Made by a program: the position numbers and the translations under genes
Shown: positions 10,901 through 64,000 of the stretch, piece after piece
Layout of the letters: the number at the start of each line of letters is the position of its first letter
Position numbering within the stretch: the stretch's first letter is position 1
DNA from: Chiridota heheva
Taxonomy: Eukaryota; Echinodermata; Holothuroidea; Apodida; Chiridotidae
Assembly (NCBI GenBank): GCA_020152595.1
Contig: JAIGNY010001437.1
Span: 1,962,501-2,026,500 of the forward strand
Direction of reading: 5' to 3'
DNA length: 64,000 nucleotides
Notes under the pieces: generated by a model
Database searches by the model: none
Told to the model about the DNA's origin: nothing
Seen by the model: only the letters and a program-made list of their open reading frames with translations

Positions 10901-13900
10901 GTGAGATAGAATATTGTATGTTTTGTAAAAATGTTTTGAAGCTGCCTATTAGCGTGAGAAATTGTGTAGTGAGGGGAGAATTAGGGCGCCACCTTCTTTT
11001 TGTAAATAGAGCCTTGTCTGTTTTAGAATATTGGTTGAGACTTCTTCGTTTGCCTGGCGATCGTTTATGTTCTCTAGCTTAACAGGAGCAGTTTACTTGG
11101 CGATCGTTTATGTTCTCTAGCAATACCAGGAGCAGTTTACCTGGTGATCATTTATGTTCTCTAGCTCACCAGGAGCAGGTTACTTAGCGATCATTTATGT
11201 TCTCTAGCTTACCAGTAGCAGTTTACCTGGTGATCATTTATGTTCTCTAACTTACCAGGAGCAATTTACTTGGCGATCATTTATGTTCTGTAGCTTACCA
11301 GGAGCAGTTTACCTGGCGATCAGTTATAATCTCTAGCTTACCAGGAGCAGTTTACCTGGCGATCACTTATGTTCTCTAGCTTACCAGGAGCAGTTTACCT
11401 GGCGATCAGTTATATTCTCTAGCTTACCAGGAGCAGTTTACCTGGCGATCATTTATGTTCTCTAGCTTACCAGGAGCAGTTTACCTGGCGATCGTTTATG
11501 TTCTCTAGCTTACTTGGAGTAGTTTACCTGGCAATCACTTATGTTCTCTAGCTTACCAGGAGCAGTTTACCTGGTGATCATTTATGTTCTCTAGCTTACC
11601 AGGCGCAGTTTACCTGGTGATCATTTATGTTCTCAAGCTTACCAGGAGCAGTTTACCTGGCGATCATTTATGTTCTCTAGCCTAGCTTTCCTATTGTTGA
11701 AAATAGGCTCCAAATCGGCCTCAATCAGCTGCAAGTCTGGAGCAACAATAACGGTTTTAAATTCTCCAAAGACAAGAAGGTCTGCATGCACTTTTGTCAT
11801 TTCAACAACCTCCACCCCAACCTGAACTTTGTGCTCAATGGCAATCGCATCCCTGAAGTTGAACTTACAAAGTTCATGGGTCTAACTCTAGACCCCAAGC
11901 TCACCTACAAGCAACACATCACCAACCCTAAACTAAAATGCAACAGCTCCCTCAACATCCTCCGACTCCTCTCCAACACCACTTGGGGTGCGAACCGCTA
12001 TGCTCTCCTCAAAATTTTCAGGCTCACCATTCGTGCCAAGCTTGACTACGGCAATATTGTCTACTGTGTCACTCACAACTCATACCTCAACCACATCAAC
12101 ACCATCCAAAATGAAGCCCTCAGGCTTTGTCTGGGTGCCTACAGGACTTCTCCAATCACCAGCCTTCATGTTGAAGCCAACGAGCCCCCTTTCTACTTAG
12201 ATGTAGAAAGCTTAGCCTCTCCTATGCTGTTAGAGTTCAACACCCAGAACCCTGTTTTCAACCTCATTAGGTACCCCAATTTCTACACCCTCTTTGATAG
12301 GACTAAAACTTATCCCTTCTCTTCAGCTTACGCATTAAATCAGATCTCTTCCATCTCGGCATCAATCCCGCTACTCTCGGCACCTTCTCCTGGCCCTTTT
12401 TTCCTCCTTGGGCCACCCCCTCCCTTCTGTCCACCTGGGCCTCTCCACTCATTACAAAACTCAAACCCACCCTTACCTCTTTATCAATCTCCACAACCAA
12501 ATCAAAGACCAACCCTTAAATTACACCTCCATCTATACTGATGGCTCCAAGGAAGGCAACAAGACAACTGCTGCTGCCTTCATTCAACACATCACCCTCA
12601 GTAGCAGACTTTCTGACTACTCATCCATCTTTTCAGCCAAGGCTAAGGCCATTCTCCTCGCCCTCAACTTGATTGAGTACTCTCCGCTCAGCCACTTTGC
12701 CATTTTCTCCGACTTAAAGGCTGTTCTTACTTCAGTTTACCTGGCGATCATTTATTTTCTCTATCTTACCAGGAGCAGTTTACTTGGTAATCATTTATGT
12801 TCTCTAGCTTACCAAGAGCAACTTTCTTTAGAAGAGAGAGGTTTTGTTTGTTGGACCTTTAAAGTTTATTGTTTCCTGTGGGTTTTGGGGAAGCATGGTT
12901 GAACCAGGGGATTGGGAGCTAAAAAGCTTCTACAATACCTTTTGAGCAAACACTTAAAGACATTTATGTTCAAAATTGGACTGGGGAAATAAAATCAAGA
13001 AGGAGATTGGTAGCGTATCGCACCTTTAAAGCTGATTTCATTTGTGAAAAATATTCAAGTTGCATCTCAGTTTGTGAATATAAGCAAAGTATTTGTAAAT
13101 TTCTTTTTCTAGTCTTGATTTAAGAGTTGATACTGGGCGATGGAATAATACCCCATTTAAGGAAAGAATTTGTGTGCTTTAGGTTTTGTCCAAGATGATT
13201 TTCATGAATAATGAAGGCCTCTCTGAGCAATTCCTGCAAATCTAAAAGAGCGAACTTTTCCAACAAACTTTCTAATCATATTCTTTTTCTCTTCACAGTA
13301 TAGAGAAGGACCATTGGTGAACAGCTGTGAAAGATGGTTGGAGATGAACATGGTCCCAAATGTAAGTTTGCTTTCTGTCACTCTTTGGAGATTCACAAAC
13401 CCGATGCAGTAGAGCACGGGTTCTGAATTAGTTTTTTCCAAGGCCATGATTTCACAACAGCCTCAGCTGCAGGCCAATCGCATGGCAAAACCAGCATGAC
13501 AAACCAAATCCCTCAAAACAATCCCTGAATACAATTAAGCTGAGAGCGTGCATGTGATAAGAAGGATGTACGCCAGATGTCAGTGGTTTTCAATATCCGC
13601 CTTCCTTTGACAAGTCCAGTGGCGTCGCCAGAGATTTTAATTTGGGGGGCACAGCAGTTCAGAGGAGGAAAATGGGGGCAACTATAAAAGTGGCAGTTAT
13701 TGTGGCACTCGAAGCGTGCATGTAACGGCATGGGTCCAGGGCCCACTTAAGGGCTCTGGTGGGGTCCAGGGGCGAAGCCCTGGTAGGGGTCCAGGGGGCG
13801 AAGCGAAGCTCTGCAGGTTTCTTGTTTTTCATGCCCCAAAATGGCTTAAAATCAAACACAGAAATTTTAAAATTAGATTGAAGACAGGAAGAAAATTTTG

Positions 13901-16900
13901 TGCCTCCCCTTAGCGACACCACTGGACAAGCCGCGATTCTGCCCAATTTATATCAGCACTGAAGATAACATTTTATTAGATAAGCTGCTGATCTGCCTAG
14001 AAAAAACCCAAGTAAACGAGTATTTTGCGATTTTTACCAATCTCTTTCAGATTGATCGGTATGATATATATTTTTTTCCAATGCCACTACTGTTCGCGGG
14101 CTAGATTGGATTGTCTGGTGGGCCAGATTTAACCTGCGGGCTGTCTATTAAGACTTGCTGCAGTAGAGGATACATACATGATGTCATGTCATACAGGCTT
14201 TTACATGGCCCTCCTAGGATCAATTGATTTTCCAAAGTTTGTTTTGTCTCATTGCTTATCTTCATGGGCAGGATTTGCCCACCGGAATTGAGTGTGTGTG
14301 TGTGTTGGGGAAAGAGGGGGGGAGGGGGAAAAGTCACAAAATGAAATTTATTTTCCCTACCAAAGTAGGGTCAGGGGGAAAAATCATAAAATCACACTAG
14401 GATGTAAATGCAGCAGATTTAGACAGTTAAAAATACCTCCCTTTCACCCCAAAATCCTCTGTATGCTTATCTGGAACACTTTTGAGGCAAATTTGACAAG
14501 AAATAGCAAGGAAAAAAAATAAGACATTCTTTTGGCATTTGGTACTCCTTATGGGGCTTGATTTGCTTGCAAAAAATATGTTTTCCACGTGTGTTTAAAT
14601 CTGATACTATTGTATGATGCAATAATGAATGTCTTCATTTCATGCACTCAATACCACTTACTTCCTTTTCTTTTATTAGCTGTCTGTTCAAATTCATTTG
14701 CGGGAGCTGCCTTTACATCTGCTCTGTAGAATTATCAAATCATCAAGGTATAGTATCTAAGAATTATTATGTATCAAATACATATAAAACATCCAGTTTA
14801 TCAACTATAAAACAACATTGTCTTACATATGAAATCTCTTCTTTCCTCATTTGCTGTTTGTTGACATGCAGGCAGGCCTCAAACTTTAAATATTTGTTAA
14901 TGCAACATTGTTCAGATCTGCTGCCCATCTCAAATTGCAGTTGTTCAGAATTTATGCAAATAAATGAATGTCCTCGTCCAATTAAAAATGCATTTCTGAC
15001 TTGTGCAGATGGCGAACTATATAAAAAACTTTGCTCCCCAAAGTACACAGTTGAATGAAAAATAGTTTGATTAGAAATTGCAATACAATCAACCATTTTA
15101 CCAATTGTAAACATCTAAGTTTTCAGATCAGTCAAACATATCATCACATCACTCTACCTAATTGAAATTTACCAGGCACAGACAGCTATTTAGACTTTGA
15201 TGGAATTTTGAGTTGCCTAGCAGGCATGCTGTTCATGGGAGATTATTGTCTGCTTTAAATTGGTAATCATTCCAAGCATCCAGGCTGGCAATATGTTGCA
15301 TGCAAGATTAAGGAACGATTATATTTTAACTTATTGAAGGTTGCATATCCATCCAATGGTGCAACTGAACAACCATAATAAACATATCACAGTTCAGGCT
15401 CCAAAATAACGATTTTTGCTCTGGGCCCATGGAGTTTCCCACCCATCTCACCCTATTTTTGGTCCACTGAATGCATCTATAAATTTTTGAGACAGTGAAA
15501 GAATTGTTTGTTTGACTATTTCTGAATTTTTCAAATCAAAGAAATTGGACTTATTTGGGATAGATTTACTTCACTTTTGGACAGGCATTTCACCATGTGG
15601 CCTCAACCAGGAAGCTAGCTAGCACTCATGAAGATATCCCCACTAAGGGTCTTTTCTATGTTTCTGTTTATAAAATGTTCCCAACCCTATCCACCTAAAA
15701 ACAAAAAGGGGAAGGATTTCAAATGATTGGTCTGCCATAAGAATAAGCCATGACATGAGTCCTACCTATGTAAATAGTCCTACCAATGTAAATAGCATGA
15801 CGTGTCCTTCTCCTTAAAAATTTGTTCCAGCAAATCATAACCACAAACTTACTGTAGCAAATAGTGAGACCACTTTATCTTAATTAAAATAACCACACAA
15901 TAAGACTTCATCCATTGCTAATATGATACTCAGCACCAACTTCCACAACTGACTAAGGTTTTTCAGAATAAAGGAAATAAATGAGGTCCTGACCCGACCT
16001 GGTTATTTATCAGGTCGGGTCTGGCTGTTTGAAACTTTAAGGAGCAGAACAACTAATGGGCCTACCTATGTAATAGTCCTACCTATGTAAATAGTCCTAC
16101 CTATGTAAATAGTCCTACCTATGTAAATAGTCCTACCTATGTAAATAGTCCTACCTGTAAATAGTCTACCTGTCCTGATGAGTCCTACTATGAGTCTACC
16201 TATGAGTCCTACCTATGAGTCCTACCTATGAGTCCTACCTATGAGTCCCTACCTGAGTCCTACCTATGAGTCTATGAGTCCAGTCCCCATGAGTCCCACC
16301 TATGAGTCCCACCCATGAGTCCCACCCTATGAGTCCCACCCTATGAGTCTGCCCATGAGTCCTACCTATGAGTCCCACCCTATGAGTCCTGCCTATGAGT
16401 CCTGCCTGAGTCCATGAGTCCTACCTATGAGTCCCACCTATGAGTCCTACCTATGAGTCCCACCTGAGTCCTACCTATGAGTCCTGCCTATGAGTCCTAC
16501 CTATGAGTCCTACCTATGAGTCCCACCTATGAGTCCTACCTATGAGTCCTACCTATGAGTCCTACCTATGAGTCCCTACCTATGAGTCCTACCTATGAGT
16601 CCTACCTATGAGTCCTACCTATGAGTCCTACCTATGAGTCCCACCTATGAGTCACCTGAGTCCTACCTATGAGTCCTACCTATGAGTCCTACCTATGAGT
16701 CCTGAGTCCCTATGAGTCCTACCTATGAGTCCCACCTATGAGTCCCACCTATGAGTCCCACCTATGAGTCCTACCTATGAGTCCTACCTATGAGTCCTAC
16801 CTATGAGTCCCACCTATGAGTCCTACCTATGAGTCCTACCTATGAGTCCTACCTATGAGTCCTACCTATGAGTCCACCTATGAGTCCCACCTATGAGTCC

Positions 16901-19900
16901 CACCTATGAGTCCCACCTATGAGTCCCACCTATGAGTCCTGCCTATGAGTCCTACCATGAGTCCCTACCTATGAGTCCTACCTATGAGTCCTACCTATGA
17001 GTCCCCTATGTGTCCTACCAATGAGTCCCACCTATGAGTCCCACCTATGAGTCCCACCTATGAGTCCTACCTATGAGTCCTACCTATGAGTCCTACCTGA
17101 GTACCTATGAGTCCTACCAGTCCTACCTATGAGTCCCTACCTATGAGTCCTACCTATGAGTCCTACCTATGAGTCCCACCCATGAGTCCTACCTATGAGT
17201 CCTACCTATGAGTCCCTACCTATGAGTCCTACCTATGAGTCCTACCTATGAGTCCTACCTATGAGTCCACCTATGAGTCCCACCTATGGTCCTACCTATG
17301 AGTCCCACCCATGAGTCCTACCTATGTGTCCTACCTATGAGTCCTACCTATGAGTCCTACCTATGTGTCCTACCTATGAGTCCTACCTATGAGTCCTACC
17401 TATGTGTCCTACCTATGAGTCCTACCTATGAGTCCTACCTATGAGTCCTACCTATGAGTACCATGTGTCCACCTATGAGTCCTACCTATGAGTCCTACCA
17501 ATGAGTCCTACCTATGAGTCCCTACCCTATGAGTCCCACCCCATGAGTCCTACCCTATGAGTCCTACCTATGAGTCCCTACCTAATGTCCTACCTATGAG
17601 TCCTACCTATGAGTCCTACCTGAGTCCTACCTATGAGTCCCACCTATGAGTCCTACCTATGAGTCCCACCTATGAGTCCCACCTATGAGTCCTACCTATG
17701 AGTCCCACCCATGAGTCCCACCCATGAGTCCACCTATGAGTCCCACCTATGAGTCCTGCCTATGAGTCCCTGCCTATGAGTCCCACCTATGAGTCCTACC
17801 TATGAGTCCTGCCTATGATGAGTCCTACCTATGAGTCCTACCTATGAGTCCCACCTATGAGATGAGTCCCTGCCTATGAGTCCTACCTATGAGTCCTGCC
17901 TATGAGTCCTACCTATGAGTCCCACCTATGAGTCCCACCTATGAGTCCTACCTATGAGTCCTACCTATGAGTCCACCTATGAGTCCCACCCATGAGTCCC
18001 ACCTATGAGTCCCACCTATGAGTCCTACCTATGAGTCCCACCTATGAGTCCCACCTATGAGTCCTACCTATGAGTCCTACCTATGAGTCCACCTATGAGT
18101 CCCCACCATGAGTCCTACCTATGAGTCCTACCTATGAGTCCTACCTATGAGTATGAGTCCTACCTATGAGTCCTACCTGAGTGAGTCCTACCTATGAGTC
18201 CCACCTATGAGTCCTACCTATGAGTCCTACCTATGAGTCCTACCTATGAGTCCTACCTATGAGTCCCACCTATGAGTCCTACCTATGAGATGAGTCCTAC
18301 CTATGAGTCCCACCTATGAGTCCTACCTATGAGTCCTACCTATGAGTCCCACCTATGAGTCCTACCTATGAGTCCCTACCTATGAGTCCTACCTATGAGT
18401 CCTACCTATGAGTCCTACCTATGAGTCCTACCTATGAGTCCTACCTATGAGTCCTACCTATGAGTCCTACCTATGAGTCCTACCTATGAGTCCTACCTAT
18501 GAGTCCTACCTATGAGTCCTACCTATGAGTCCCTACCTATGAGTCCTACCTATGAGTCCTACCTATGAGTCCTACCTATGAGTCCTACCTATGAGTCCTA
18601 CCTATGAGTCCACCTATGAGTCCTACCTATGAGTCCTACCTATGAGTCCTACCTATGAGTCCTACCTATGAGTCCTACCTATGAGTCCTACCTATGAGTC
18701 CTACCTATGAGTCCTACCTATGAGTCCTACCTATGAGTCCTACCTATGAGTCCTACCTATGAGTCCTACCTGAGTCCTACCTATGAGTCCCACCTATGAG
18801 TCCTACCTGAGTCCTACCTATGAGTCCTACCTATGAGTCCTACCTATGAGTCCTACCTATGAGTCCTACCTATGAGTCCTACCTATGAGTCCTACCTATG
18901 AGTCCTACCTATGAGTCCTACCTATGAGTCCTACCTATGAGTCCTACCTATGAGTCCTACCTATGAGTCCTACCTATGAGTCCTACCTATGAGTCCCTAC
19001 CTATGAGTCCTACCTATGAGTCTACCCATGAGTCCCACCTATGAGTCCCACCCATGAGTCCACCTATGAGTCCCACCTATGAGTCCTACCTATGAGTCCC
19101 TATGAGTCCTGCCATGTCCCCCATGAGTCCCACCTATGAGTCCCACCTATGAGTCCACCTATGAGTCCTACCTATGAGTCCTACCATGAGTCCTACCTAT
19201 GAGTCCTACCTATGAGTCCCACCCATGAGTCCCACCATGAGTCCTGCCATGAGTCCCCATGAGTCCCACCCATGAGTCCCACCTATGAGTCCCACCCATG
19301 AGTCCCATGAGTCCTATGAGTCCCACCATGAGTCCCACCTATGAGTCCCACCTATGAGTCCCACCTATGAGTCCCACCATGAGTCCCACCCATGAGTCCC
19401 ACCCATGAGTCCCCACCTATGAGTCCCACCCATGAGTCCCACCCATGACCCATGAGTCCCACCCTGTGTCCCACCCATGAGTCCCACCCATGAGTCCCAC
19501 CATGAGTCCCACCTGAGTCCACCATGAGTCCCACCCTATGAGTCCTACCTATGAGTCCCACCTATGAGTCCCACCTATGAGTCCCACCTATGAGTCCCAC
19601 CTATGAGTCCCATGAGTCCCACCATGAGTCCCACCATGAGTCCCACCCCATGAGTCCCACCATGAGTCCCACCTATGAGTCCCACCCATGAGTCCCACCC
19701 ATGAGTCCCACCCATGAGTCCATGACCATGAGTCCCACCTATGAGTCCCACCTATGAGTCCCACCATGAGTCCCACCTATGAGTCCCACCTATGAGTCCC
19801 ACCCTATGAGTCCCACCTATGAGTCCTACCTATGAGTCCCACCTATGAGTCCTACCTATGAGTCCTACCTATGAGTCCCCTGAGTCCTATGAGTCCCCAT

Positions 19901-22900
19901 GAGTCCCACCTATGAGTCCCACCATGAGTCCCACCTATGAGTGAGTCCTACCATGAGTCTATGAGTACCTATGAGTCCTACCTATGAGTCCTACCTATGA
20001 GTCCTACCTATGAGTCCCACCTATGAGTCCTACCTATGAGTCCTACCTATGAGTCCTACCCATGAGTCCTACCTATGAGTCTACCATGAGTCCCACCTAT
20101 GAGTCCTACCTATGAGTCCTGAGTCCTACCTATGAGTCCCACCTATGAGTCCTACCTATGAGTCCTACCTATGAGTCCTACCTATGAGTCCTACCTATGA
20201 GTCCTACCTATGAGTCATACCTATGAGTCCTACCTATGAGTCCACCTATGAGTCCTGCCTGAGTGAGTCCCACCCATGAGTCCCACCCATGAGTCCTACC
20301 TATGAGTCCTACCTATGAGTCCCCCCATGAGTCCCACCTATGAGTCCTACCTATGAGTCCCACCCATGAGTCCCACCATGAGTATGAGTCCTATGAGTCC
20401 CACCTATGAGTCCCACCTATGAGTCCCACCTGAGTCCTACCTATGAGTCCTACCTATGAGTCCTACCTATGAGTCCTACCTATGAGTCCTACCTATGAGT
20501 CCTACCTATGAGTCCTACCTATGAGTCCTACCTATGAGTCCTACCTATGAGTCATACCTATGAGTCATACCTATGAGTTATACCTATGAGTCATACCTAT
20601 GAGTTATACCTATGAGTTATACCTATGAGTCATACCTATATTTTACTTTTTAAAACACATAAATTTAAAAACTATTGTAGGAAAGTTTGATTCATCAAAA
20701 CAATTATTTCTTTTATGTGGCCAGAACATTGACTGGTAGTGTTGCACATCTCTCAGTCATATCAATAGGGTTTTCTTCTTTCTCTCTACTCTTAGATTTT
20801 TTACCTTCAATGAATACTACATTTACAGAAGTTTGTGCTACTGGCTGTTCCTGCAGTTAAACCATTCCATTCAACTTATGCCGTCTCACAGCACCATTGT
20901 GACATATTTCAATAGGTAACTTTTTTATATTCAGCATGATAATGTATAAAAGAAGAAAATGTTCAAAGTTGATGCTTGTCAGAAATTGCTTTCATTGTAT
21001 ACAATTGTAAAATGTTTCTAATTTTGAAGATGTGAAAATATGAAAAAGTAGTTTGAATTTATTTTTATTGTATTTATGTATTTTTCTAATTTTGGTGAGG
21101 TGCAAAAAAATACATAGGTCAATTTGCAAAAATCTCATAACCTTAAAATCTGTAATCCAAAGTGGTTAGATTGATAAAAGGCTCTTTTCCGAAGAGGTAT
21201 GATACGGATAGTGACAAAATCGAGTAATTTTTCTTTGGTTTCTTTTATTGGCAACAATGATTGTGCTGTAGTCTTGGTCAATTGCCCTTCTCTATTAGGG
21301 AGCATATAATCTATGTGTCAGCATATGCAAGCCATAACTCTTATGCCATCAGTAAAGCATTCATAATGTAGTAAAAAAGTTAAATGATTTATTTTTAGCA
21401 AAAGTACCCAAAAAGTGAAATTCTGAATTAACTTAGATTTGAATTTTAATTCTTGTGATCATATGTCCTGATGTGTTTAGAAAATTCAAAGTAAATGTTT
21501 TTCAAATGTCAGTTTTGAAATAGATATTTATATTTAATATTTAGGGGCAATTTCATTCCATAGACAGCGAACATAGAAGGTATAATACATCAGAGCAAGA
21601 AACTGGGAAGTACTTAATTTTGTTTTTTTAAGTATGGGCCCATTTTTTCCAAATTTGTAATTGGTGCTGTTGATTTGAAAATGTCAGAAGCCTGGTTGAA
21701 ACAAAAAATGTGTTAATGGTGAATTCACCTTCCCTTTCTATGGGTGTACTTTTTAAATTTGACAATGTGTCATTGTTTGGTAGCTTATCAAGGTCCAGCG
21801 CGTTTATCGAGCGTGATGAAGGTCAGAGGTATGCCAACCTCTTCATGAGTATCAGGATGAGTGGGATCACGGACACCAGACACCTGGATGACATGCTGAG
21901 GATGAACGTTGTACCACAAAGCTGGATACTCAAAGCCCTGAGTCATCATTACCATGCACTACAAGGTGGGGGCGACATGTCACTTATGCTCAATTTCAGC
22001 AGTGATGCGCTTCGATTTGGATTCATAATTGAACAGGTAAATATTTCTGAATGATTATAATTTAGCAAAGAAGCACAGCTCATCTTCTTCGGTCAAACTT
22101 TCTTCCCCTCCTCTCCCTTCCCCTCCTCTCTCTTCCCCTTTTCTTCCTTCCCCTCCTCTTCCTTCCCCTCCTCCCCTTCCCCTCCCTTCCTTTCCCTCTT
22201 CTCCCTCCCCCCTCCTCTCCCTTCCTCTCCTCTTTCTTTCCCTCTTCTTTCTTCCCCCTCCTCTTCCTTCCCCTCCTCTCCCTTCCCCTCCTCTTCCTTT
22301 CCCTCCTCTCCCTCCCCCTCCTCTCCCTTCCCCTCCTCTTCCTTTCCCTCCTCTCCCTTCCCCTCCTCTTCCTTTCCCTCCTCTCCCTCCCCCCTCCTCT
22401 CCCTTCCCCTCCTCTTCCTTCCCCTCCTCTCCCTTCCCCTCCTCTCCCTTCCCCTCCTCTTCCCTTCCCCTCCTCTCCCTTCCCTCCTCTTCCTTTCCCC
22501 TCCTCTCCCTCCCCTCCTCTCCCTTCCCCTCCTCTCCCTTCCCTCCTCTCTCCCCTTCCCTCCTCTCCCTTCCCCTCCTCTTCCTTCCCCTTCTTTCCCT
22601 TCCCTCCTCTCCCTTCCCCTCTTCCCTTCCCCTCCTCTCCCTTCCCCTTCTCTCCCTTCCCCTCCTCTTCCTTCCCCTCTCTTTTCCTTCCCCTCCTTCC
22701 CTTTCCTACTCTCCCATCCCCTCCTCTCCCTTCCCCTCCTCTCCCTTCCTCTCCTCTCCTGGGTCATAGTTTTCAGACAAAATAGATTCATCAATGTTGA
22801 AGCATACTAACTAGTATGTATGATAATTGTAAATAGTATGTATTTCACTTAGGCATATGCCAGGAAAAGCACACGTAAGTCACAACTACTTGTTTTCATT

Positions 22901-29200: not shown

Positions 29201-29416
29201 TTATTCCATTTCAAACAATATACCATTTGCCATCGCACCCCTCTTTCTCGTTTAGGAATACATGCATAATACATCCTATCCTCGCCCTTTTTCCCATTAG
29301 AAATAAATTCATTTCAAAAGTGGGTTCAACGCATGGTATGTTTCCAGTGGGGGACGAAATGTGTGGTGTAACTTTCGCTTCAGTTGATAAGCAAAAGAGA
29401 GAGCTATGCCCTATTT
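26286..29416. other. Intergenic; no gene recognised
   Basis: Mixed AT-rich sequence with short G- or C-rich tracts and no frame with supported splice sites or a recognised protein. Small open frames look random. Confidence 0.5.
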
Positions 29417-29617
29417 CGCCAGTGCGCCACAACTGGTTATCAAAGGCCGTGGACATTGACTTGGTTGTCGATGTTATGTCTGTCCCTACGTCGTACCTGT
29501 GTTCTCGTCCGGGTCGTATTAAGCTTTTCGTGATAGCATTGTTACTATCATAAGCGATTACGCAGGTGACGACCCCGATATTGTAATTGTGTGTTCACTC
29601 GTCGTCGTCGCCCTCTC
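29417..29617 (+). mobile_element. tRNA-SINE family copy 1 (5'-truncated)
   Basis: It matches the body of the SINE seen at 34565, 42951 and 46340: CCACAACTGGTTATCAAAGG through GTATTAAG, CGTGATAGCATT and GTAATTGTGTGTTCA. The tRNA-like head is missing, and the CT tail is replaced by a TCG-rich stretch. Confidence 0.85.
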
Positions 29618-34282: not shown

Positions 34283-34564
34283 GACTCATACTTTTTACGC
34301 TCGGTTGGCGTTCATGTCCTCTTGAAGGATTTTTGCCGACTTAACCGATTCAGATTCAGACTCGCACAGACAACCATATTCGCAGAGCTGCCCTCAGCTG
34401 CGAATAAGACCCACCATAATACGAATGCGAATAAGACCCCCAAAATACACACCTTGGGTGTAAAATGGGAATCGCTTGATTGACTTTGATTTTGTTGGTC
34501 AAATAAGGTCAACTACTCGTCGCACGCAATACCCTGCATCGTGTATGTAATATATCCGTGATCG

Positions 34565-34836
34565 AGAGAGAGAGAGAGAGAGCTGAACACACAATTACAA
34601 TGACGGGGTCGTCGCCTGCGTATTCGGTTATGATAGTAACAATGCTATCACGAAACGCTCAATACGACCCGGACGAGAACACAGGTATCCGGACAGACAT
34701 AACATCGACAACCAAGTCAATGTCCACGGCCTTTGATAACCAGTTGTGGTGCACTGGCGTGTCTACCCACCCCAGGCTTGAACCCGGGGCCTCGTGGTCT
34801 GTAGACAGGTATGCTAACCGCTACTCTACAGTAGGT
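34565..34836 (-). mobile_element. tRNA-SINE family copy 2, full length with TSD
   Basis: A minus-strand SINE of 272 bp, flanked by the 11-bp duplication ATCCGTGATCG (34554-34564 and 34837-34847). On the minus strand the head starts ACCTACTGTAGAG and contains a tRNA-like box A region (GTAGCGGTTAGCATACC) and box B (GGGTTCAAGCC). A body of about 180 bp follows, and the tail ends in (CT)n. Confidence 0.92.
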
Positions 34837-34936
34837 ATCCGTGATCGCGTTGTAGTGGTTCTTAAATAAGCCTGAATGATTATACCGGAAGGAATGACGC
34901 AGAAGGGAGGGGAAGGGGAGGGGGAATTCATATGTG

Positions 34937-36814: not shown

Positions 36815-39800
36815 TGCTCACAACGGCACGCTGCTCACGACGGCACGCTGCTCACGACGGCACGCTGCTCACGACGGCACGCTGCTCACGACGGCACGCT
36901 GCTCACGACGGCACGCTGCTCACGACGGCACGCTGCTCACGACGGCACGCTGCTCACGACGGCACGCTGCTCACGACGGCACGCTGCTCACGACGGCACG
37001 CTGCTCACGACGGCACGCTGCTCACGACGGCACGCTGCTCACGACGGCACGCTGCTCACGACGGCACGCTGCTCACGACGGCACGCTGCTCACGACGGCA
37101 CGCTGCTCACGACGGCACGCTGCTCGACGGCACGCTGCTCACGACGGCACGCTGCTCACGACGGCACGCTGCTCACGACGGCGCTGCTCACGACGGCACG
37201 CTGCTCACGACGGCACGCTGCTCACGACGGCACGCTGCTCACGACGGCACGCTGCTCACGACGGCACGCTGCTCACGACGGCACGCTGCTCACGACGGCA
37301 CGCTGCTCACGACGGCACGCTGCTCACGACGGCACGCTGCTCACGACGGCACGCTGCTCGACGGCACGCTACTCACGACGGCACGCTACTCACGACGGCA
37401 CGCTGCTCACGACGGCACGCTGCTCACGACGGCACGCTGCTCACGACGGCACGCTGCTCACGACGGCACGCTGCTCACGACGGCACGCCACGACGGCACG
37501 CTGCTCACGACGGCACGCTGCTCACGACGGCACGCTGCTCGACGGCACGCTGCTCGACGGCACGCTGCTCACGACGGCACGCTGCTCGACGGCACGCTGC
37601 TCACGACGGCACGCTGCTCACGACGGCACGCTGCTCACGACGCTGCTCACGACGGCACGCTGCTCACGGACGGCACGCTGCTCACGACGGCACGCTGCTC
37701 GACGACGGCACGCTGCTCACGACGGCACGCTGCTCACGACGGCACGCTGCTCACGACGGCACGCTGCTCACGACGGCACGCTGCTCACGACGGCACGCGC
37801 TCACGACGGCACGCTGCTCACGACGGCACGCTGCTCACGACGACGGCTCACGCTGCTCACGACGGCACGCTGCTCACGACGGCACGCTGCTCACGACGGC
37901 ACGCGACGACGGCACGCTGCTCGACGGCACGCTGCTCACGACGGCACGCTGCTCACGACGGCACTCACGACGGCACGCTGCACTCACGACGGCACGCTGC
38001 TCACGACGGCACGCGCTCACGACGGCACGCTGCTCGACGGACGGCGACGCTGCTCACGACGGCACGCTGCTCACGACGGCACGCTGCTCACGACGGCACG
38101 CTGCTCGACGGCACGCTGCTCGACGGCACGCTGCTCACGACGGCACGCTGCTCACGACGGCACGCTGCTCACGACGGCACGCTGCTCACGACGGCACGCT
38201 GCTCACGACGGCACGCTGCTCACGACGGCACGCTGCTCACGACGGCACGCTGCTCACGACGGCGACGCTGCTCACGACGGCATCACGACGCACGCTGCTC
38301 ACGACGGCACGACGGCACGCTGCTCACGACGGCACGCTGCTCACGACGGGCTCACGACGGCACGCTGCTCACGACGGCACGCTGCTCACGACGGCACGCT
38401 GCTCACGACGGCACGCTCACGACGGCACGCTGCTCGACGGCACGCTGCTCACGACGGCACGCTGCTCACGACGGCACGCTGCTCACGACGGCACGCTGCT
38501 CACGACGGCACGCTGCTCACGACGGCACGCTGCTCACGACGGCACGCTGCTCACGACGGCACGCTGCTCACGACGGCACGCTGCTCACGACGGCACGCTG
38601 CTCACGACGGCACGCTGCTCACGACGGCACGCACGCTCACGACGGCACGCTGCTCACGACGGACGCTGCTCACGACGGCACGCTGCTCACGACGGCACGC
38701 TGCTCACGACGGCACGCTGCTCACGACGGCACGCTGCTCACGACGGCACGCTGCTCACGACGGCACGCTGCTCACGACGGCACGCTGCTCACGACGGCAC
38801 GCTGCTCACGACGGCACGCTGCTCACGACGGCACGCTGCTCACGACGGCACGCTGCTCACGACGGCACGCTGCTCACGACGGCACGCTGCTCACGACGGC
38901 ACGCTGCTCACGACGGCACGCTGCTCACGACGGCACGCTGCTCACGACGGCACGCTGCTCACGACGGCACGCTGCTCACGACGGCACGCTGCTCACGACG
39001 GCACGCTGCTCACGACGGCACGCTGCTCACGACGGCACGCTGCTCACGACGGCACGCTGCTCACGACGGCACGCTGCTCACGACGGCACGCTGCTCACGA
39101 CGGCACGCTGCTCACGACGGCACGCTGCTCACGACGGCACGCTGCTCACGACGGCACGCTGCTCACGACGGCACGCTGCTCACGACGGCACGCTGCTCAC
39201 GACGGCACGCTGCTCACGACGGCACGCTGCTCACGACGGCACGCTGCACGCTGCTCACGACGGCACGCTGCTCACGACGGCACGCTGCTCACGACGGCAC
39301 GCTGCTCACGACGGCACGCTGCTCACGACGGCACGCTGCTCACGACGGCACGCTGCTCACGACGGCACGCTGCTCACGACGGCACGCTGCTCACGACACG
39401 CTGCTCACGACGGCACGCTGCTCACGACGGCACGCTGCTCACGACGGCACGCTGCTCACGACGGCACGCTGCTCACGACGGCACGCTGCTCACGACGGCA
39501 CGCTGCTCACGACGGCACGCTGCTCACGACGGCACGCTGCTCACGACGGCACGCTGCTCACGACGGCACGCTGCTCACGACGGCACGCTGCTCACGACGG
39601 CACGCTGCTCACGACGGCACGCTGCTCACGACGGCACGCTGCTCACGACGGCACGCTGCTCACGACGGCACGCTGCTCACGACGGCACGCTGCTCACGAC
39701 GGCGACGGCACGCTGCTCACGACGGCACGCTGCTCACGACGGCACGCTGCTCACGACGGCACGCTGCTCACGACGGCACGCTGCTCACGACGGCACGCTG

Positions 39801-42158
39801 CTCACGACGGCACGCTGCTCACGACGGCACGCTGCTCACGACGGCACGCTGCTCACGACGGCACGCTGCTCACGACGGCACGCTGCTCACGACGGCACGC
39901 TGCTCACGACGGCACGCTGCTCACGACGGCACGCTGCTCACGACGGCACGCTCACTGACGGCACGCTGCTCACGACGGCACGCTGCTCACGACGGCACGC
40001 GCTGCTCACGACGGCACGCGCTCACGACGGCACGCTGCTCACGACGGCACGCTGCTCACGACGGCACGCTGCTGCTCACGACGGCACGCTGCTCACGACG
40101 GCACGCTCACGACGGCACGCTGCTCACGACGGCACGCTGCTCACGACGGCACGCTGCTCACGACGGCACGCTGCTCACGACGGCACGCTGCTCACGACGG
40201 CACGCTGCTCACGACGGCACGCTGCTCACGACGGCACGCTGCTCACGACGGCACGCTGCTCACGACACGCTGCTCACGACGGCACGCTGCTCACGACGGC
40301 ACGCTGCTCACGACGGCACGACGACGGCACGCTGCTCACGACGGCACGCTGCTCACGACGGCACGCTGCTCACGACGGCACGCTGCTCACGACGGCACGC
40401 TCACGACGGCACGCTGCTCACGACGGCACGCTGCTCACGACGGCACGCTGCTCACGACGGCACGCTGCTCACGACGGCACGCTGCTCACGACGGCACGCT
40501 GCTCACGACGGCACGCTGCTCACGACGGCACGCTGCTCACGACGGCACGCACGCTGCTCACGACGGCACGCTGCTCACGACGGCACGCTGCTCACGACGG
40601 CACGCTGCTCACGACGGCACGCTGCTCACGACGGCACGCTGCTCACGACGGCACGCTGCTCACGACGGCACGCTGCTCACGACGGCACGCTGCTCACGAC
40701 GGCACGCGCTGCTCACGACGGCACGCTGCTCACGACGGCACGCTGCTCACGACGGCACGCTGCTCACGACGGCACGCTGCTCACGACGGCACGCTGCTCA
40801 CGACGGCACGCTGCTCACGACGGCACGCTGCTCACGACGGCACGCTGCTCACGACGGCACGCTGCTCACGACGGCACGCTGCTCACGACGGCACGCTGCT
40901 CACGACGGCACGCTGCTCACGACGGCACGCGCTCACGACGGCACGCGCTCACGACGGCACGCTGCTCACGACGGCACGCTGCTCACGACGGCACGCTGCT
41001 CACGACGGCACGCTGCTCACGACGGCACGCTGCTCACGACGGACGCTGCTCACGACGGCACGCTGCTCACGACGGCATCGCTGCTCACGACGGCTGCTCA
41101 CGACGGCGACGGCACGCTGCTCACGACGGCACGCTGCTCACGACGGCACGCTGCTCACGACGGCACGCTGCTCGACGGCACGCTGCTCACGACGGCACGC
41201 TGCTCACGACGGCACGCTGCTCACGACGGCACGCTGCTCACGACGGCACGCTGCTCACGACGACGGCACGCTGCTCACGACGGCACGCTGCTCACGACGG
41301 CACGCTGCTCACGACGGCACGCTGCTCACGACGGCACGCTGCTCACGACGGCACGCTGCTCACGACGGCACGCTGCTCACGACGGCACGCTGCTCACGAC
41401 GGCACGCCGCTCACGACGGCACGCTGCTGCTCACGACGGCGACGGCACGCTGCTCACGACGGCACGCTGCTCCGACGGCACGCTGCTCACGACGGCACGC
41501 TGCTCACGACGGCACGCTGCTCACGACGGCACGCTGCTCACGACGGCACGCTGCTCACGACGGCACGCTGCTCACGACGGCACGCTGCTCACGACGGCAC
41601 GCTGCTCACGACGGCACGCTGCTCACGACGGCACGCTGCTCACGACGGCACGCTGCTCACGACGGCACGCTGCTCACGACGGCACGCTGCTCACGACGGC
41701 ACGCTGCTCACGACGGCACGCTGCTCACGACGGCACGCTGCTCACGACGGCACGCTGCTCACGACGGCACGCTGCTCACGACGGCACGCTGCTCACGACG
41801 GCACGCTGCTCACGACGGCACGCTGCTCACGACGGCACGCTGCTCACGACGGCACGCTGCTCACGACGGCACGCTGCTCACGACGGCACGCTGCTCACGA
41901 CGGCACGCTGCTCACGACGGCACGCTGCTCACGACGGCACGCTGCTCACGACGGCACGCTGCTCACGACGGCACGCTGCTCACGACGGCACGCTGCTCAC
42001 GACGGCACGCTGCTCACGACGGCACGACGGCACGCTGCTCACGACGGCACGCTGCTCACGACGGCACGCTGCTCACAACGGCACGCTGCTCACGACGGCA
42101 CGCTGCTCACGACGGCACGCTGCTCACAACGGCACGCTGCTCACAACGGCACGCTGTG
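36815..42158. repeat. 5.3-kb minisatellite, 17-bp CpG-dense unit
   Basis: The unit is CACGACGGCACGCTGCT (17 bp, 3 CpG, about 70% GC), roughly 310 copies. Nearly all variation is by deletion of part of a unit; substitutions are rare except at the ends, where the variant CACAACGG is found in the first unit and in several of the last units. Since 17 is not a multiple of three and the unit holds no plus-strand stop, all three plus frames stay open for kilobases. The resulting 1810-, 1793- and 1052-residue frames are artefacts of the repeat. Confidence 0.97.
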
Positions 42159-42179: not shown

Positions 42180-43660
42180 AAATAACAAGGTGTAATATTT
42201 CTACCCCTTGTTGGCATCTAAACTCCAAACCATGGTTGTTCCCATGTCAATTATTTACTGGATACTGAACTATCTTACTTCTCGTCCGCAGTATGTAAGG
42301 TTGAATCCACATACCTCGGACACTGTCATTTCAAATACAGGAGCACCACAAGGCACTGTACTAGCACCTTTTCTTTTTAGCTTGTACACCTATGATTGCC
42401 AGGCAGTGACCGAGTCATGTTCTATCGTCAAATTTGCTGACGATACAGCTCTGATTGGGCTTGTCACAAATGACGATGACTCACATTATCGAAGTGAAAT
42501 CAGCAATTTTGTTAGCTATTGTGACCAAAACTTCCTTAACCTGAATGTCAGCAAAACAAAAGAGATGGTTATTGATTTTAGACAGCATTGTAATCCTCCT
42601 GACCCAATTACAATTGCTGACTCTGAGGTTGAACGTGTGCAATCTTACAAGTATTTAGGTGTAGTAATCAACAATAAACTCACTTGGTCAGACAATACAG
42701 ATGCCATAATGTCAAAACTCAACTCTCGCCTATATTGCCTCAGAAAACTGAAATCTTTCCACGTCGACAGTAACATTTTACAACTTTTTTATCGTTCCGT
42801 TTTTACATCTGTTTTTAGCTATTGCATCGTTTGCTGGGGTGGTTGTGCCTCCAAGCATGACACCTATAGAATCAATTCTGTCATCAGAAGAGCGATATTA
42901 TTTATACCTGTCCATATATATAGCGGCGCCAGTCTGCCAGTGACGTATCTACCTACTGTGGTGTAGCGGTTATCATACCTGTCTACAAACCACGAGGCCC
43001 CGGGTTCAATCCTGGGGTGGGTAGACACGCCAGTGCACCACAACTGGTTATCAAAGGCCGTGGACATTGACTTGGTTGTCGATGTTATGTCTGTCCGTAC
43101 GTCGTACCTGTGTTCTCGTCCGGGTCGTATTAAGCGTTTCGTGATAGCATTTGTACTATCATAACCGAATACGCAGGCGACGACCCCGTCATTGTAATTG
43201 TGTGTTCAACTCTCTCTCTCTCAGAAGAGCGAGTCAACTTTTCAATGAAAGCAATTTACGAAATATAGACTCATTCTACCACTCCAGTCTCGATCGCAAA
43301 CTTAAGTCCCTCCTCGCGGACACCAACCATCCATTACACAATGAATTTATGAATAGGTTGATTGCCAGGAGTGGTAGAATGAGGCTTCCAGCTCTCGCCA
43401 CAAATCGTTTTAGAAATTCCTTTGTGCCAAAAGCCACTTCCTTTCATAATGCCAACCACTCCAGATAGTCCATGTGCAATATTTCATATGCAATTTTCTA
43501 TTTTATTATTTTCATCATTGTGTATATTTACTCTTTTATCTTTTAAATGTTTTCAGCTTTTTACTCATTTCATTTTATGTATCATGATTGTATCTTGCGA
43601 GCTGAAATTGCCCAGTTTCTGGTGCTTAATAAAGTTGATTGTATTGTATTGTATTGCAAA
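42180..43660 (+). mobile_element. Non-LTR retrotransposon, 5'-truncated (Rex1/CR1-like), split by a SINE
   Basis: The frame from 42208 has RT motifs GAPQGTVLAPFLFSLY, an intact FADD box (FADDTALIG) and YLGVVINNKLTW. The C-terminal part (SVFTSVFSYCIVCWGG, INSVIRRA) is cut by a SINE at 42896-43221. After it the frame resumes with RRASQLFNES and ends at 43468. The 3' end carries AATAAAGTTGATTG followed by (TATTG)n, a typical LINE tail. The 5' part, with the endonuclease and the first RT blocks, is missing where the 17-bp array ends. The clade is inferred from motifs. Confidence 0.85.
42896..43221 (+). mobile_element. tRNA-SINE family copy 3, inside the retrotransposon, with TSD
   Basis: The insertion is flanked by the 11-bp duplication CAGAAGAGCGA (42885-42895 and 43222-43232). 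The SINE proper starts at about 42951. TCTACCT at 42948-42954 pairs with GGGTAGA at 43019-43025 as an acceptor stem, with box A-like GTAGCGGTTATCA and box B-like GGGTTCAATCC between. The tail is (CT)n. About 55 bp of extra sequence lies between the left target duplication and the head. Confidence 0.9.
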
Positions 43661-44235
43661 CATTCAATTTTTTTATCGAATTTAAGCATGTTTATGGACT
43701 TTCAAATACCAAATCCAGGACACTCCTATCGGGGATTCGCCCCTGGATCCCACCAGGGACCTAGACCGATCCCAGGATCCCACGCCTATTGACGGCACAT
43801 CGATGCAAACCATCGCCAATTTAAAAAAGAACCTCGCGCCGGCCCTGCAATAGTCTATTTATTTTTCATACTTATGCCTTATATGACTTGTCATTACCCC
43901 TTAACCTTCAATGTTAATGCCTGAAACTTAAAGGCACATTTCTCTTATTGCAATAAAATATTTGGACAATTTGATAGACAAATATATACAAATTTTATCA
44001 CAATTTCTTTTTTTTGCGAGGAAATTATCAAACAAAATCATGAACTATGCCACATTCAGAAGCTGGAAGTGTATAATATGAATCACTGCAGTGATAAGCC
44101 CGGTGTGACGTCATTGCAAGCACAAAGCGACTCACATAACCACACAAATAGCACATGCACATACTGATCATAGTATACACTTCGTTACAAGCGCCATATC
44201 ATCAATTTGTTATCATCTGAAAATAAAATATAAAA
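43661..44235. other. Spacer; no gene recognised
   Basis: AT-rich sequence with GGATCCCAC-type short repeats near 43740-43785. No supportable exon. Confidence 0.5.
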
Positions 44236-45676
44236 TACATCAGAATTGTCTGAAAGGCCTGAAGATATCTCAGAGGAACTGTTAACCGAGTATGACATGC
44301 ACCTGTTCTTCGAGAAAGGTATGAGAGGTGGTATTTCCATGGTATTCAAGCGCTATGCTAAAGCCAACAACCCCTATGTCTCAGGCTATGACGATTCCAA
44401 GCCTAACAATCATATTCTCTACCTAGATGCAAATAACCTGTATGGTTGGGCGATGAGTCAAGCACTACCCACGGGTAAAATCGAATGGGTGGATAAAGTG
44501 CCCTTGCTGGATACACTTTCACCCAATGCAGAAAAGGCTTACATACTCGAGGTGGACCTTGAGTATCCTCAAGAGCTATACGGCGTCCACAATGCCTACC
44601 CACTTGCTCCGGAACGTATGAAAGTTCCGAAGGAGTGGCGGTCAGATTTTCAGAAAGGACTTTTAAACTCGTCAACTGATGTTGAAAAGTTGGTTCCCAA
44701 TCTCTGCGATAAAAAAACGCTATGTTGTGCACTACCGGAATTTACAACTCTGCCTCTCTCTAGGTATGAAGCTGACAAAAATACATCGTGCAATTCGGTT
44801 CGATCAAAGCAAGTGGATGAAACTCTACATCAGAATGAATAAAGAACTTCAAAAGAAGGCCAAGACCAGCTTTGAGAAGGACTTCTACAAACTTAAGAAC
44901 AATAGCGTTTTTGGTAAGACTATGGAAAATCTGCGTAAGCGTGTAGATGTCAAACTCGCGAGTGCCTCTAAAGATGACAAGCTTCGCCGGTGGATAGCCA
45001 GCCCCGCGTTTGCTAGGCATGTGGTATTTGATGATGATCTAGCCACCCTACACATACACAAACGCCGGCTGATGCTTAACCAGTTAACCGACTAGTCTAC
45101 GTTGGGATGTGTGTTCTGGACCCGAGTAAACATCTAATGTACGACTTTTATTACAACAACCTGAAGAAGCAATATGGGGAGCGGTGCAATCTTCTCTATA
45201 CGGAAACAGATAGTCTTCTACTTGAAATCCAAACCGAGGATGTGTATGCTGATATAAGTTCTGAGTCACACCTCTATGACACGAGTAATTATCCGACAGA
45301 CCACCCGCTCCACAACACCACGAACAAAAAAGGTGCTTGGCAAAATGAAAGACAAATGTGCTGGAGTACCCATTAACGAGTATGTAGGACTTTGACCCAA
45401 AATGTATTATATCCTGAAGGAAGTTGGAGGCGAGATCCGAAAAGCAAAAGGTGTTAAAAAGTATGTTGTGAGATAAAATATACGGCATCAGCAGTACAAA
45501 GAAGCACTGTATGACAGCAAGACATTTCGTCATGGTATGAATCTATTGAAAAGCGAACACCACATTATATATATCATGCGAATAAATATCATACAATTTC
45601 TTTGTCACCTCTTGATACCAAGCGCTGGATTATGAGTGAATCACCCACCACTATGGCCTTTGGCTACAGGAATTAA
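44236..45676 (+). pseudogene. Protein-primed family B DNA polymerase remnant (Polinton/Maverick type)
   Basis: The C-terminal part of a family B DNA polymerase of the protein-primed type found in Polinton/Maverick elements and related viruses. Visible: LYLDANNLYGWAMSQALPTG (motif A region), FYKLKNNSVFGKTMENLRKR (motif B, K-x3-NS-x-G) and LLYTETDSLLLEI (motif C, usually TDTDS; the first Asp is Glu here). At least three breaks are seen: a frame change at an A run (44710-44716), one near 45085-45105, and stops beyond 45376. The N-terminal exonuclease part is absent, and no capsid, integrase or protease gene was found nearby. It is a decayed fragment without coding capacity for a whole enzyme. 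Confidence 0.78.
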
Positions 45677-56534: not shown

Positions 56535-56690
56535 ATGGGATGTTTTGTGGGACATGGGGTGGGATGCCATGTGGGACATTGGTTGGGATGCCATGTGGAA
56601 CAGGGTGGAATACCATGTAGGATATATGGTGGAATGCCATGCGGGACATAGGGTGGAAAGCCATGGGATGGGGATGTCATGTCGGATAGT
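56535..56690. repeat. Minisatellite, GGGATGCCATGTGGGACAT-type unit
   Basis: About seven degenerate copies of a 22-24-bp unit. The same family recurs at 63716-64000. Confidence 0.8.
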
Positions 56691-60345: not shown

Positions 60346-61374
60346 AAAAAGAAATCTTAAATCTTAAATCAGGAATCACATGTTCACTGAAGACTTGCTT
60401 GAGCGCGATAATTACAGCGAGAATAGAACAGAAGTCTGGCATTTTGCGAATGATGGGATATTAGCTGTAATAGTCTGCAATAATTAGCCATTGGTGTTTG
60501 TCAAAGTCCAATAGGTTTATTTCTGTTACACTCCATGGTTGTGTGGGTATGTCATGCTGCATGAGTGTTCTGATTGTTGGGATGGTTGATGCTACTGGCA
60601 TACAGAGCATGATCGAACCATTAGATCTATATCCTTGTTGATATTTGGCCAGTAGACAGTTTCTTTGTTGAGCAGCTTTGTTTTCTCTTGTCCAAGATAA
60701 GGAGTGTGGAGCTGCTTGAGGATGTTTTGCTGCATGTGTGACAACTCGGCTTCCCTTCAAGATGATGCCTTTGTCAACTGACAGTTCATCACAAAAGGAC
60801 CAAAAGGGCCTGATATCAGTCGAAAGATCTTTTATGTTCTCTGGCCATCCTCTTATGATGATTTCCATCAGATGGCTCAATGTGCCATCATTGTGCATTG
60901 CTTGTTGAAGTTCGTCGACTCTCAGATGAGAAGTATACCAGGTCAACACGCATATCTGGATCGATTGTATTGTGGTTGTCAGGGTTTGGGAATCTTGAGA
61001 GATAGTCAGCGAGTTGATTTTCTGCACCTGGCTGGTGTTGGTTATCAAAGTTGTAGCCTTGTATCTTCACAAGCATTTGTTGCAAACAGGATGGGGCAGT
61101 GATAAGTGGCTTCTGTGTGATCATAAGAAGTGGTTTGTGGTCAGTGATGACATGGAAACTGCACCCATACAGGTAAGTATGAAAACGCTGACATCCGAAA
61201 ACAATTGATAATAGTTCCCTCTCAATGCAAGCATACCATGCTCAGTTGGAGTTAGGCTTTTGCTTGAATAAGCTACCAGTTGTAGTCTTCCATTAGTGGT
61301 GTTGTAGAAAGGCTGCCAAAGACCTTTCAAGCTGGCGTCACAATGCATGTATGCAGGTTTGTCTTGGTCATAGT

Positions 61375-62554
61375 CCTTCTCCATCTTGGTATCAATCTCA
61401 CCACTCTCAGCACTTTCTCATGGCCCACTTTTCCTCCTGGGCCACCCCCCCTACTACCCACCTGGACCTCTCCACTCATCACAAAACCCAAACCCACCCT
61501 AACCTCTTCATCAACCTCCACAACCAAATCAAAGACCAACTCTCAAACTATACCTCCATCTATACTGATGGCTCCGAGGAAGGCGACAAGATAGCTGCTG
61601 CTGCCGCCATTCAAGACATCACCCTCAGTAGCAGGATTCCCGACTACTCATCCATCTTCTTGGTCGAGGCCAAGGCCATCCTCTTCGCCCTCAACTTTAT
61701 TGAATACTCTCCTCTCAGCCACTTTGCCATCTTCTCTGACTCCAAGGCTGTCCTTCATTACTCAATGTTAAATGGGATAACCCCACATCTCACCACATCC
61801 TCCGTCAACTCCTTTCGCCCCCTCCTCCCTCCGTAGGAAAAGTATTTTTTTCTTCTGGATACCCAGCCATGTATCCCTGGCAATGACAGGGCTGATGCAG
61901 CTGCTAAGCTTGCCCTCACCTTTCCCCCTACCCCTTTTCCCAAAACCCTTTCTGACATCAAACCACTTATCACTTCCCTTGTTCGTGGCCGCTGGCAAAC
62001 CTCATGGAACTCCCAAATTGATAACAGACTCCACATCATCCAGCCCACCATTCCGATCAAACCCACTTCTCACAACCTATCCCGTTTTGACAACGTCCAC
62101 ATTACCCGCATTAGAATAGGTCACACCCACCTCACTCACTCCCACCTCCTTAATGGCTCCCCCCTACCCCTCTGCAACGATTGCCATTGCACCCTCACAG
62201 TCCATCACATTATTCTTGCTTGTCCCCTGTACAACCTTCTTAGAGCTTTCCTCGTTGACGACAACTCAGTAGCCAAGCTCTTCCAAAAAAAACCTCAAGA
62301 TAAAATGATCTCCTTCCTTCATCATGCTTCCCTCTACAACCATATTTAGTCCTCCTCTTCCACCCCCTCTCTCTACATTATTTTTCCATCCATACACCTC
62401 CTCTCTCGATCCCAGCTTTGTGGCTTTTAGTTCTCGTGTTTCTCTCAATTTCCCCCTGTTTACTCTCCATCCTACTTCTGGAATGATCTAACCTCTCAGG
62501 CACAATTTGACCCTTGCTGTTGTGGTGCCATTAAACTCTCATCAAACAAACAAA
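61375..62554 (+). mobile_element. 5'-truncated non-LTR retrotransposon (I/Nimb-like) nested in Gypsy, with TSD
   Basis: The insertion of 1180 bp is flanked by CATAGT on both sides (61369-61374 and 62555-62560). Joining the flanks restores the Gypsy reading frame. It carries RNase H (IYTDGSEEGDK, VEAKAILFALNFIEYSPLSH, FSDSKAV) at about 61545-61760. After a frameshift near 61835 come the downstream IPGNDRADAAAKLAL, TRIRIGHTHLTHSHLLNGSP, a degenerate CCHC-like stretch and HHIILACPLYN. It ends in a short A-rich ATCAAACAAACAAA tail. It is the same family as the fragment at 11681-12732. Confidence 0.92.
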
Positions 62555-62940
62555 CATAGTATGTGAGCAAGAATAGGTTGGGGATGTCTTCCTTTAGTTG
62601 TTCGAACACTGATTGATGGTGTGCTTTCCATAAATATTCTGAATCTCTTTTTAGTAGATCACTGAGTGTTGAAGACTTAGCACTGAAGCTTTTTGATGAA
62701 GCATGACAGGTAGGTCATGAAGCCTAGAAACTTAAAATTCCATTTTGGTAGTTGATGGCTTTGCTGTTTGGATGTCCTTCAATTTGGCAGGATCTGGTTG
62801 AATTCCTTGGGCTGTGTAGAGATTGTTAAAGTTTAGTAAGAGACTAGCTGTTTTGCTTGATCCATGAATTGCTTGAGGTTCTTGTTATGCTCTTCTTCTG
62901 TCGCTCCAAATATGACTACGTCATCAGCAATTCCCACGCA

Positions 62941-63306
62941 CCAGTGCATTTCTTGAAGATGCGGTGCATTTCTGGAAGATGCGGTGCATTTCTTGAAGAT
63001 GCGGTGCATTTCTCGAAGATGTGGTGCATTTCTTCAAGATGCATTTCTCCAAGATGCAGTACATTTCTCCAAGATGCAGTGCATTTCTCCAAGATGCAGT
63101 GCATTTCTCCAAGATGCGGTGCATTTCTCGAAGATGTGGTGCATTTCTTCAAGATGCGGTACATTTCTCCAAGGTGGGGTGCATTTCTCCAAGATGCAGT
63201 GCATTTCTCCAAGATGCAGTGTATTTCTCCAAGGTGGGGTGCATTTCTCCAAGATGCAGTGCATTTCTCCAAGGTGCGGTGCATTTCTCCAAGATGCGGT
63301 CCATTT
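62941..63306. repeat. 20-bp minisatellite derived from Gypsy RT sequence
   Basis: About 18 copies of GTGCATTTCTCCAAGATGCG with variants (TTCTTCAAG, TTCTCGAAG, AAGGTGGG) and one short copy near 63040. On the minus strand the first unit is in frame with the Gypsy RT and reads MDRILEKCTA. The last runs into the RT sequence that continues to ADDVVIFG. The unit length is not a multiple of three, so the array disrupts the frame. Confidence 0.9.
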
Positions 63307-63715
63307 CCAGTTGGAAAATATTCTAACTAACAGAAAGTTCAAATGGAAGACTTTGAAAACAATATCTGGCAAATGGTGTTTGGAATGTTGTCAACTTTTG
63401 GCTGCTCTCGTCCAGTTTTACTGACCTGTAGCCTGCTTTTTTTGTGTCAAGTTTGGAAAAGTACTTTGCTCCTGAAGTATGAATGGTCCCTCTACATGGA
63501 TGACAAAATAGGTTGTCTGAACCCACTGGTCCTTGTACCTACTGTTGATTTTGATTGTACCAAAAGTGGATTGGTATGTGGTTGTACACTCTTAGAATGC
63601 TGGTGCTTGGCTCTAAGGTGCCTGGTAGGGTTTTCCATCCTTGCCGATGTTACATGGGTACATTTTCTGGTATGATTGTATTGGCAGGACATTGCCTTCG
63701 GATAAAACATTAATG

Positions 63716-64000
63716 TGGGATATGGGATGTCATGTGGGACATGGGGTCCCACCCCATTTCATGTGTGACATACGGTGGGAGGCTATGTGGGACATAGGGT
63801 AGGGGGACATGGGATGTGATGCCATGTGGGATATAAAGTAGTATGTCATTGGGACATTGAGAGGGATACCTTGTGGAACATTTGGTGGGATCCAATGTGG
63901 GACATAAGGTAGGATGCCATGTGGGACATAAGGTGGGATGCCATGTGGGACAGGTGGGAAGCCACTGATGCAGGACTGAAGGTGAATGCCATAGGGGACA
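63716..64000. repeat. Minisatellite, GGGATGCCATGTGGGACATA-type unit, runs off the window
   Basis: About twelve degenerate 22-30-bp copies of the family also seen at 56535-56690. It continues to the right edge, so its full length is unknown. Confidence 0.85.

Follow-up and report, generated by a model that had tools for sequence, protein, structure and literature searches.

How a minisatellite came to occupy the catalytic part of a retrotransposon gene is the question raised by this locus. Within the window, by which we mean the whole 64,000-base stretch of DNA that was analysed, a 20-bp tandem array interrupts a decayed Ty3/Gypsy reverse transcriptase (RT) gene on the minus strand. Such an array may have been formed from the very gene that it now splits, or it may have been assembled elsewhere and have entered the gene afterwards, and the two origins can be compared through the reading frame, the spacing and the sequence of the units and their flanks.

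The array and its host element

TRF reported the 20-bp tandem array at 62944-63307 (18.5 copies, score 504), and a script cut it into 18 units at 62944-63298, all of 20 bp except for a single 15-bp one, with the minus-strand consensus CGCATCTTGGAGAAATGCAC. An earlier note on this DNA had given the coordinates as 62941-63306; the array is indeed there, and the ends had been misplaced by a few bases. Composed of head-to-tail units that lie within the range of about 10-100 bp, it is a minisatellite. The mean pairwise identity among the 17 full units (the 15-bp unit excluded) is 87.7%, with a minimum of 75%. With up to three mismatches allowed, the 20-bp unit was matched 18 times in the 64-kb window, and all 18 matches fell within the array, one of them spanning the 15-bp unit and overlapping a neighbouring match. 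No such match was obtained in 100 shuffles, by which a chance origin of the array was rejected. The array and the recognizable parts of its host are as follows.

62944..63298, minus strand: 20-bp minisatellite of 18 units, unit CGCATCTTGGAGAAATGCAC (TRF and unit cutting)
63044..63058, minus strand: shortened 15-bp unit (unit cutting)
63279..63298, minus strand: first unit, identical to the consensus and in frame with the RT 5' block (RILEKCT)
63299..63481, minus strand: RT 5' block (KYFSKLD ... LPFELSVS*NIFQLEMD) with one in-frame stop; RVT_1 25.9 bits with the stop read through
62836..62934, minus strand: 3' block of the RT, containing the catalytic ADD motif (GIADDVVIFGATEEEHNKNL...); RVT_1 13.3 bits, E 0.068, under the cut-off, the motif being read directly
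60888..61241, minus strand: RNase H domain, assigned to the same Gypsy element; Pfam RT_RNaseH 45.7 bits
about 61380..62555, plus strand: LINE-like fragment nested in the Gypsy element, lying between thumb and RNase H, with approximate ends placed by eye

On the minus strand, the 5' side of the array reads LPFELSVS*NIFQLEMDRILEKCT, or in longer form KYFSKLDTKKAGYRSVKLDESSQKLTTFQTPFARYCFQSLPFELSVS*NIFQLEMD, and the 3' side reads GIADDVVIFGATEEEHNKNL, in agreement with the earlier claim that the array lies between the LPF(G)LS-type block and the ADD block. The 5' stretch ahead of the stop scored 21.9 bits against RVT_1, under the Pfam cut-off of 29.6 bits; among solved structures, the same stretch matched the RT chain of 8r0s at E 0.011 and, weakly, the Ty3 RT (4ol8) at E 0.85. 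The 3' block matched no RT among the solved structures, giving 0 matches at E 1 and one unrelated match at E 10. An RVT_1 match followed by RT_RNaseH on one strand, here the minus strand, places the element in Ty3/Gypsy. LTRs and, downstream of RNase H, an integrase are expected in this group; Pfam had no match at E 0.1 in the open reading frame at 60461-61066.

The Gypsy element looks dead, as judged from its stop codon, frame changes and nested insertion. The nested fragment, presumably a LINE, carries an RNase_H match under the cut-off and a CAAA-type tail, and its portion at 61380-61755 matches a second LINE-like copy at 12350-12728 with 86% identity. Upstream of the RT block, the region 63440-63675 presumably resembles, in another frame, the end of a Gypsy protease, which suggests an internal deletion of the first part of the RT. 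The Gypsy remains are also flanked by one and the same 24-bp minisatellite family (56546-56665 and 63804-63952), the two sites being about 7 kb apart, in the same orientation and 71-78% alike.

Several other repeats and elements were observed in the window. Tandem arrays form 28 stretches that cover about 15,562 of the 64,000 bases, according to a hand-merged mask in which one stretch includes a gap of about 265 bases, the largest arrays being a 17-bp one at 36815-42156 and a 13-bp one at 16178-20639. In the region 11048-12820, arrays that share a 43-bp unit stand on both sides of a LINE-like fragment (about 11682-12728); either the fragment entered the 43-bp array or the array is mobile. The peptide DITSTTKSMSTAFDNQLW... 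occurs three times (29211-29594, 34507-34869 and 42864-43205), apparently as a dispersed repeat, and two of the three sites gave no Pfam match at E 0.01. Two overlapping open reading frames at 44234-45095 may, we assume, be the remnant of a Polinton/Maverick element; the first gave no Pfam match at E 0.01, and the second matched DNA_pol_B_2 (viral or organellar type B DNA polymerase) with 16.7 bits, under the cut-off.

Homology, register and spacing of the unit

The first unit, which equals the consensus, follows the RT flank without a break and in frame, IFQLEMD being continued by RILEKCT. A unit derived from a transposable element matches that element at the site, and the first unit here extended both the RVT_1 match and the alignments to known RTs. 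When it was added to the 5' block, the RVT_1 score rose from 25.9 to 30.5 bits (cut-off 29.6 bits), both scores being obtained with one stop read through, and the end of the match moved from profile position 135 to 140; this gain of 4.6 bits, from an uncontrolled comparison, is small. In the comparison of the 5' block plus the first unit with solved RTs, which retrieved 180 distinct sequences at E values up to 10, of which 60 were listed and five aligned, the alignment to 8r0s (E 1.1e-05) reached the I of the first unit, and those to the four retroviral chains printed ran through RILE, at E 0.15 and weaker. The alignment to the Ty3 RT (4ol8) ended before the unit. The score of 8r0s increased from 19.4 to 28.9 bits with the longer query, mostly owing to NIFQLEMD and not to the unit.

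The spacing of the catalytic blocks provides another measure. As found, 523 nt separate the D of KLD from the first D of ADD; the distance would be 168 nt with no unit, 188 nt with one unit kept and 208 nt with two. The catalytic residues D151 and D213 of the Ty3 RT are 62 residues apart, as described in PMC5371799, and D151 would correspond to the D that is aligned to KLD here. The Ty3 alignment shows one extra residue in the present Gypsy RT, so the forecast becomes 63 codons, or 189 nt, a value that depends on Ty3 as the single reference. The one-unit spacing is 1 nt short of this forecast, and neither zero nor two units fit; a reading across the one-unit site is 1 nt out of frame. In the RVT_1 profile itself, 12 columns (141-152) separate the 5' match from the 3' match; one unit leaves 20 nt for them and two units would leave 40 nt, a count that fits two units better than one. 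We give it little weight because the profile has 77 columns where the element has 65 residues, being longer than this Gypsy RT throughout, and it slightly lowers our confidence in an amplification in place.

Origin and growth of the array

The frame and homology of the unit, the Ty3 spacing and a direct repeat at the array's edge all support the earlier proposal that the repeated unit was amplified in place from RT coding sequence, and on these sequence comparisons we consider this origin very probable. We propose as the source a single-copy 20-bp stretch of the Ty3/Gypsy RT, coding for RILEKCT and located after the FQ..MD block and before the ADD motif, which would have been duplicated in situ before growing to 18 units. 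Slipped-strand mispairing or unequal exchange between GAAATGGACCG and GAAATGCACTG probably caused the first duplication, and the later increase would have involved slippage as well as the duplication of blocks. From the present arrangement we infer the single-copy ancestor, the slippage and this order of events. The element would either have been dead already or have been killed by the array, which adds 335 bases, not a multiple of three.

The repeats on which the slippage step would depend are located at the two ends of the array.

63299..63307, minus strand: GAAATGGAC, part of the RT coding sequence (EMD), repeating the unit end imperfectly and in direct orientation
62944..62952, minus strand: GAAATGCAC, end of the last unit and partner in the direct repeat

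In the models proposed by Haber and Louis and by Taylor and Breden, as recounted in PMC6947457 and PMC3389668, the source must be surrounded by a direct repeat. Such a repeat is present here in imperfect form: the RT flank GAAATGGAC before the first unit and the unit end GAAATGCAC, 20 bp apart, are identical at 8 of 9 positions, and over a longer stretch GAAATGGACCG and GAAATGCACTG, likewise 20 bp apart, agree at 9 of 11. The unit end is matched equally well by 9 of the 96,410 non-array 9-mers on both strands, the RT flank itself lying within the array mask and not being one of the nine. Pairs of the 9/11 quality were found at 23 of the 47,568 non-array sites at lag 20 and in 1,333 of the 2,404,702 site-lag pairs over lags of 10-60, so repeats of such quality are no rarity in 64 kb. 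At the junction, exact homology extends over AC alone, with a mismatch on each side, and the flanks have decayed. Slippage between these imperfect repeats appears to us moderately probable.

Other accounts of the array have to be weighed against an amplification in place. According to one of them, the 20-bp array had already formed elsewhere and entered the RT gene by insertion. The window is certainly rich in arrays (15,562 of its 64,000 bases by the hand-merged mask), and in one case, that of the 43-bp array at 12733-12820, a LINE-like element is indeed interrupted: the match between the two LINE-like copies stops at 12728, the array starts at 12733, and in the other copy, read from 61380 onwards, its unit finds only chance-level matches of 7-11 bases. 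That junction has the look of a foreign array, or of an end joined to one, and the Gypsy array is unlike it. The 20-bp unit continues both the homology and the frame of the RT, the spacing with one unit is within 1 nt of that forecast from Ty3, no further copy exists in the window at up to three mismatches, and the flanks display no target duplication by eye. Insertion was rejected on register, spacing and flanks, and we regard it as highly improbable. It is also improbable that the array is a property of the whole family, amplified in an ancestral element, or by template slippage during reverse transcription, and then spread by transposition. Arrays shared by a whole family are known in Gmr9/GmOgre of soybean, as reported in PMC3305785, but the 335 extra bases would shift the frame here, so that a carrier could presumably not make RT and would spread only with the help of another copy. 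As such a history would also have started in place, it overlaps with the explanation that we favour.

A further possibility, somewhat doubtful in our view, is that the first duplication occurred in place without a direct repeat, for example by end joining at a break, and that the array grew by unequal crossing-over. Only about 6% of the human tandem repeats derived from transposable elements showed signs of the two slippage models, as the survey in PMC3389668 gives it; in addition, comparable repeats are common enough in the window (1,333 of 2,404,702 site-lag pairs) for this one to be present by chance, and the exact homology at the junction amounts to just 2 bases. The agreement of the flank with the unit end at 8 of 9 positions, equalled by 9 of 96,410 non-array 9-mers, speaks against this possibility.

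After its start, the array seems to have had a history of its own. Units 8-9 reappear as units 14-15 with one difference, units 4 and 7 have CCCACC in common, and units 16-18 form a subgroup, a pattern most readily explained by the duplication of blocks at a later stage than the first event. A mean divergence of 12% between units indicates that the array is not newborn, and the earlier description of the locus as catching the birth of a minisatellite was overstated in view of this divergence and of the later block duplication.

Sister copies of the element were sought within the window by tblastn with four of its pieces, which recovered the pieces themselves and chance matches (E 1.2 and weaker). 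In viral contigs, queries with the RNase H and 5' RT pieces gave 1 and 5 pattern matches, respectively, none of them confirmed, and a degenerate motif pattern gave 0 matches in viral and prokaryotic contigs; the collections scanned for Gypsy relatives were viral and prokaryotic, and absence there says little. A broader idea, which we hold to be quite improbable, is that this genome turns transposon pieces into minisatellites unusually often and that its Gypsy copies form a dated series from segment to array. If true, such a series would make it possible to trace step by step how minisatellites arise and grow.

Comparison with known systems

Growth in place from a piece of a transposable element is a well-known route to repeated DNA, of which the array described here is apparently a further example. 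In a human survey, 7,276 of 31,472 minisatellites were assigned to transposable elements (Ahmed and Liang, 2012; PMC3389668), and further cases are described in PMC6947457. The human arrays, like very probably the present one, grew from a piece of a transposable element, and the likely source here differs in being the RT coding region of a Gypsy element. The survey in PMC3389668 took units longer than 20 bp that were at least 95% alike, and the present array would fall outside it. Among the papers listed in our narrow literature searches, none is on a minisatellite derived from Gypsy RT coding sequence, though one may exist, and a text search for six variants of the catalytic motif returned no paper.

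The soybean retrotransposon Gmr9/GmOgre is, we assume, of the Gypsy type. Its minisatellites also reside within a retrotransposon; as described in PMC3305785, they are situated outside the coding region, between it and the LTR, and are a property of the family, whereas the present array breaks the RT gene. Minisatellites begun between short direct repeats, as modelled by Haber and Louis (1998) and by Taylor and Breden (2000) and recounted in PMC6947457 and PMC3389668, resemble the array in having a short unit, a short direct repeat on either side of the source and, at one end, a partial unit, and in their later growth. The array departs from that model in the imperfection of its direct repeat (9/11), and its partial unit, at 9 of 20 bases, is shorter than the 90-99% counted in the human survey (PMC3389668). 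The locus adds an example and no new principle, and it offers a clear teaching case, in which a likely source, a possible slippage repeat and later duplications are legible at one locus.
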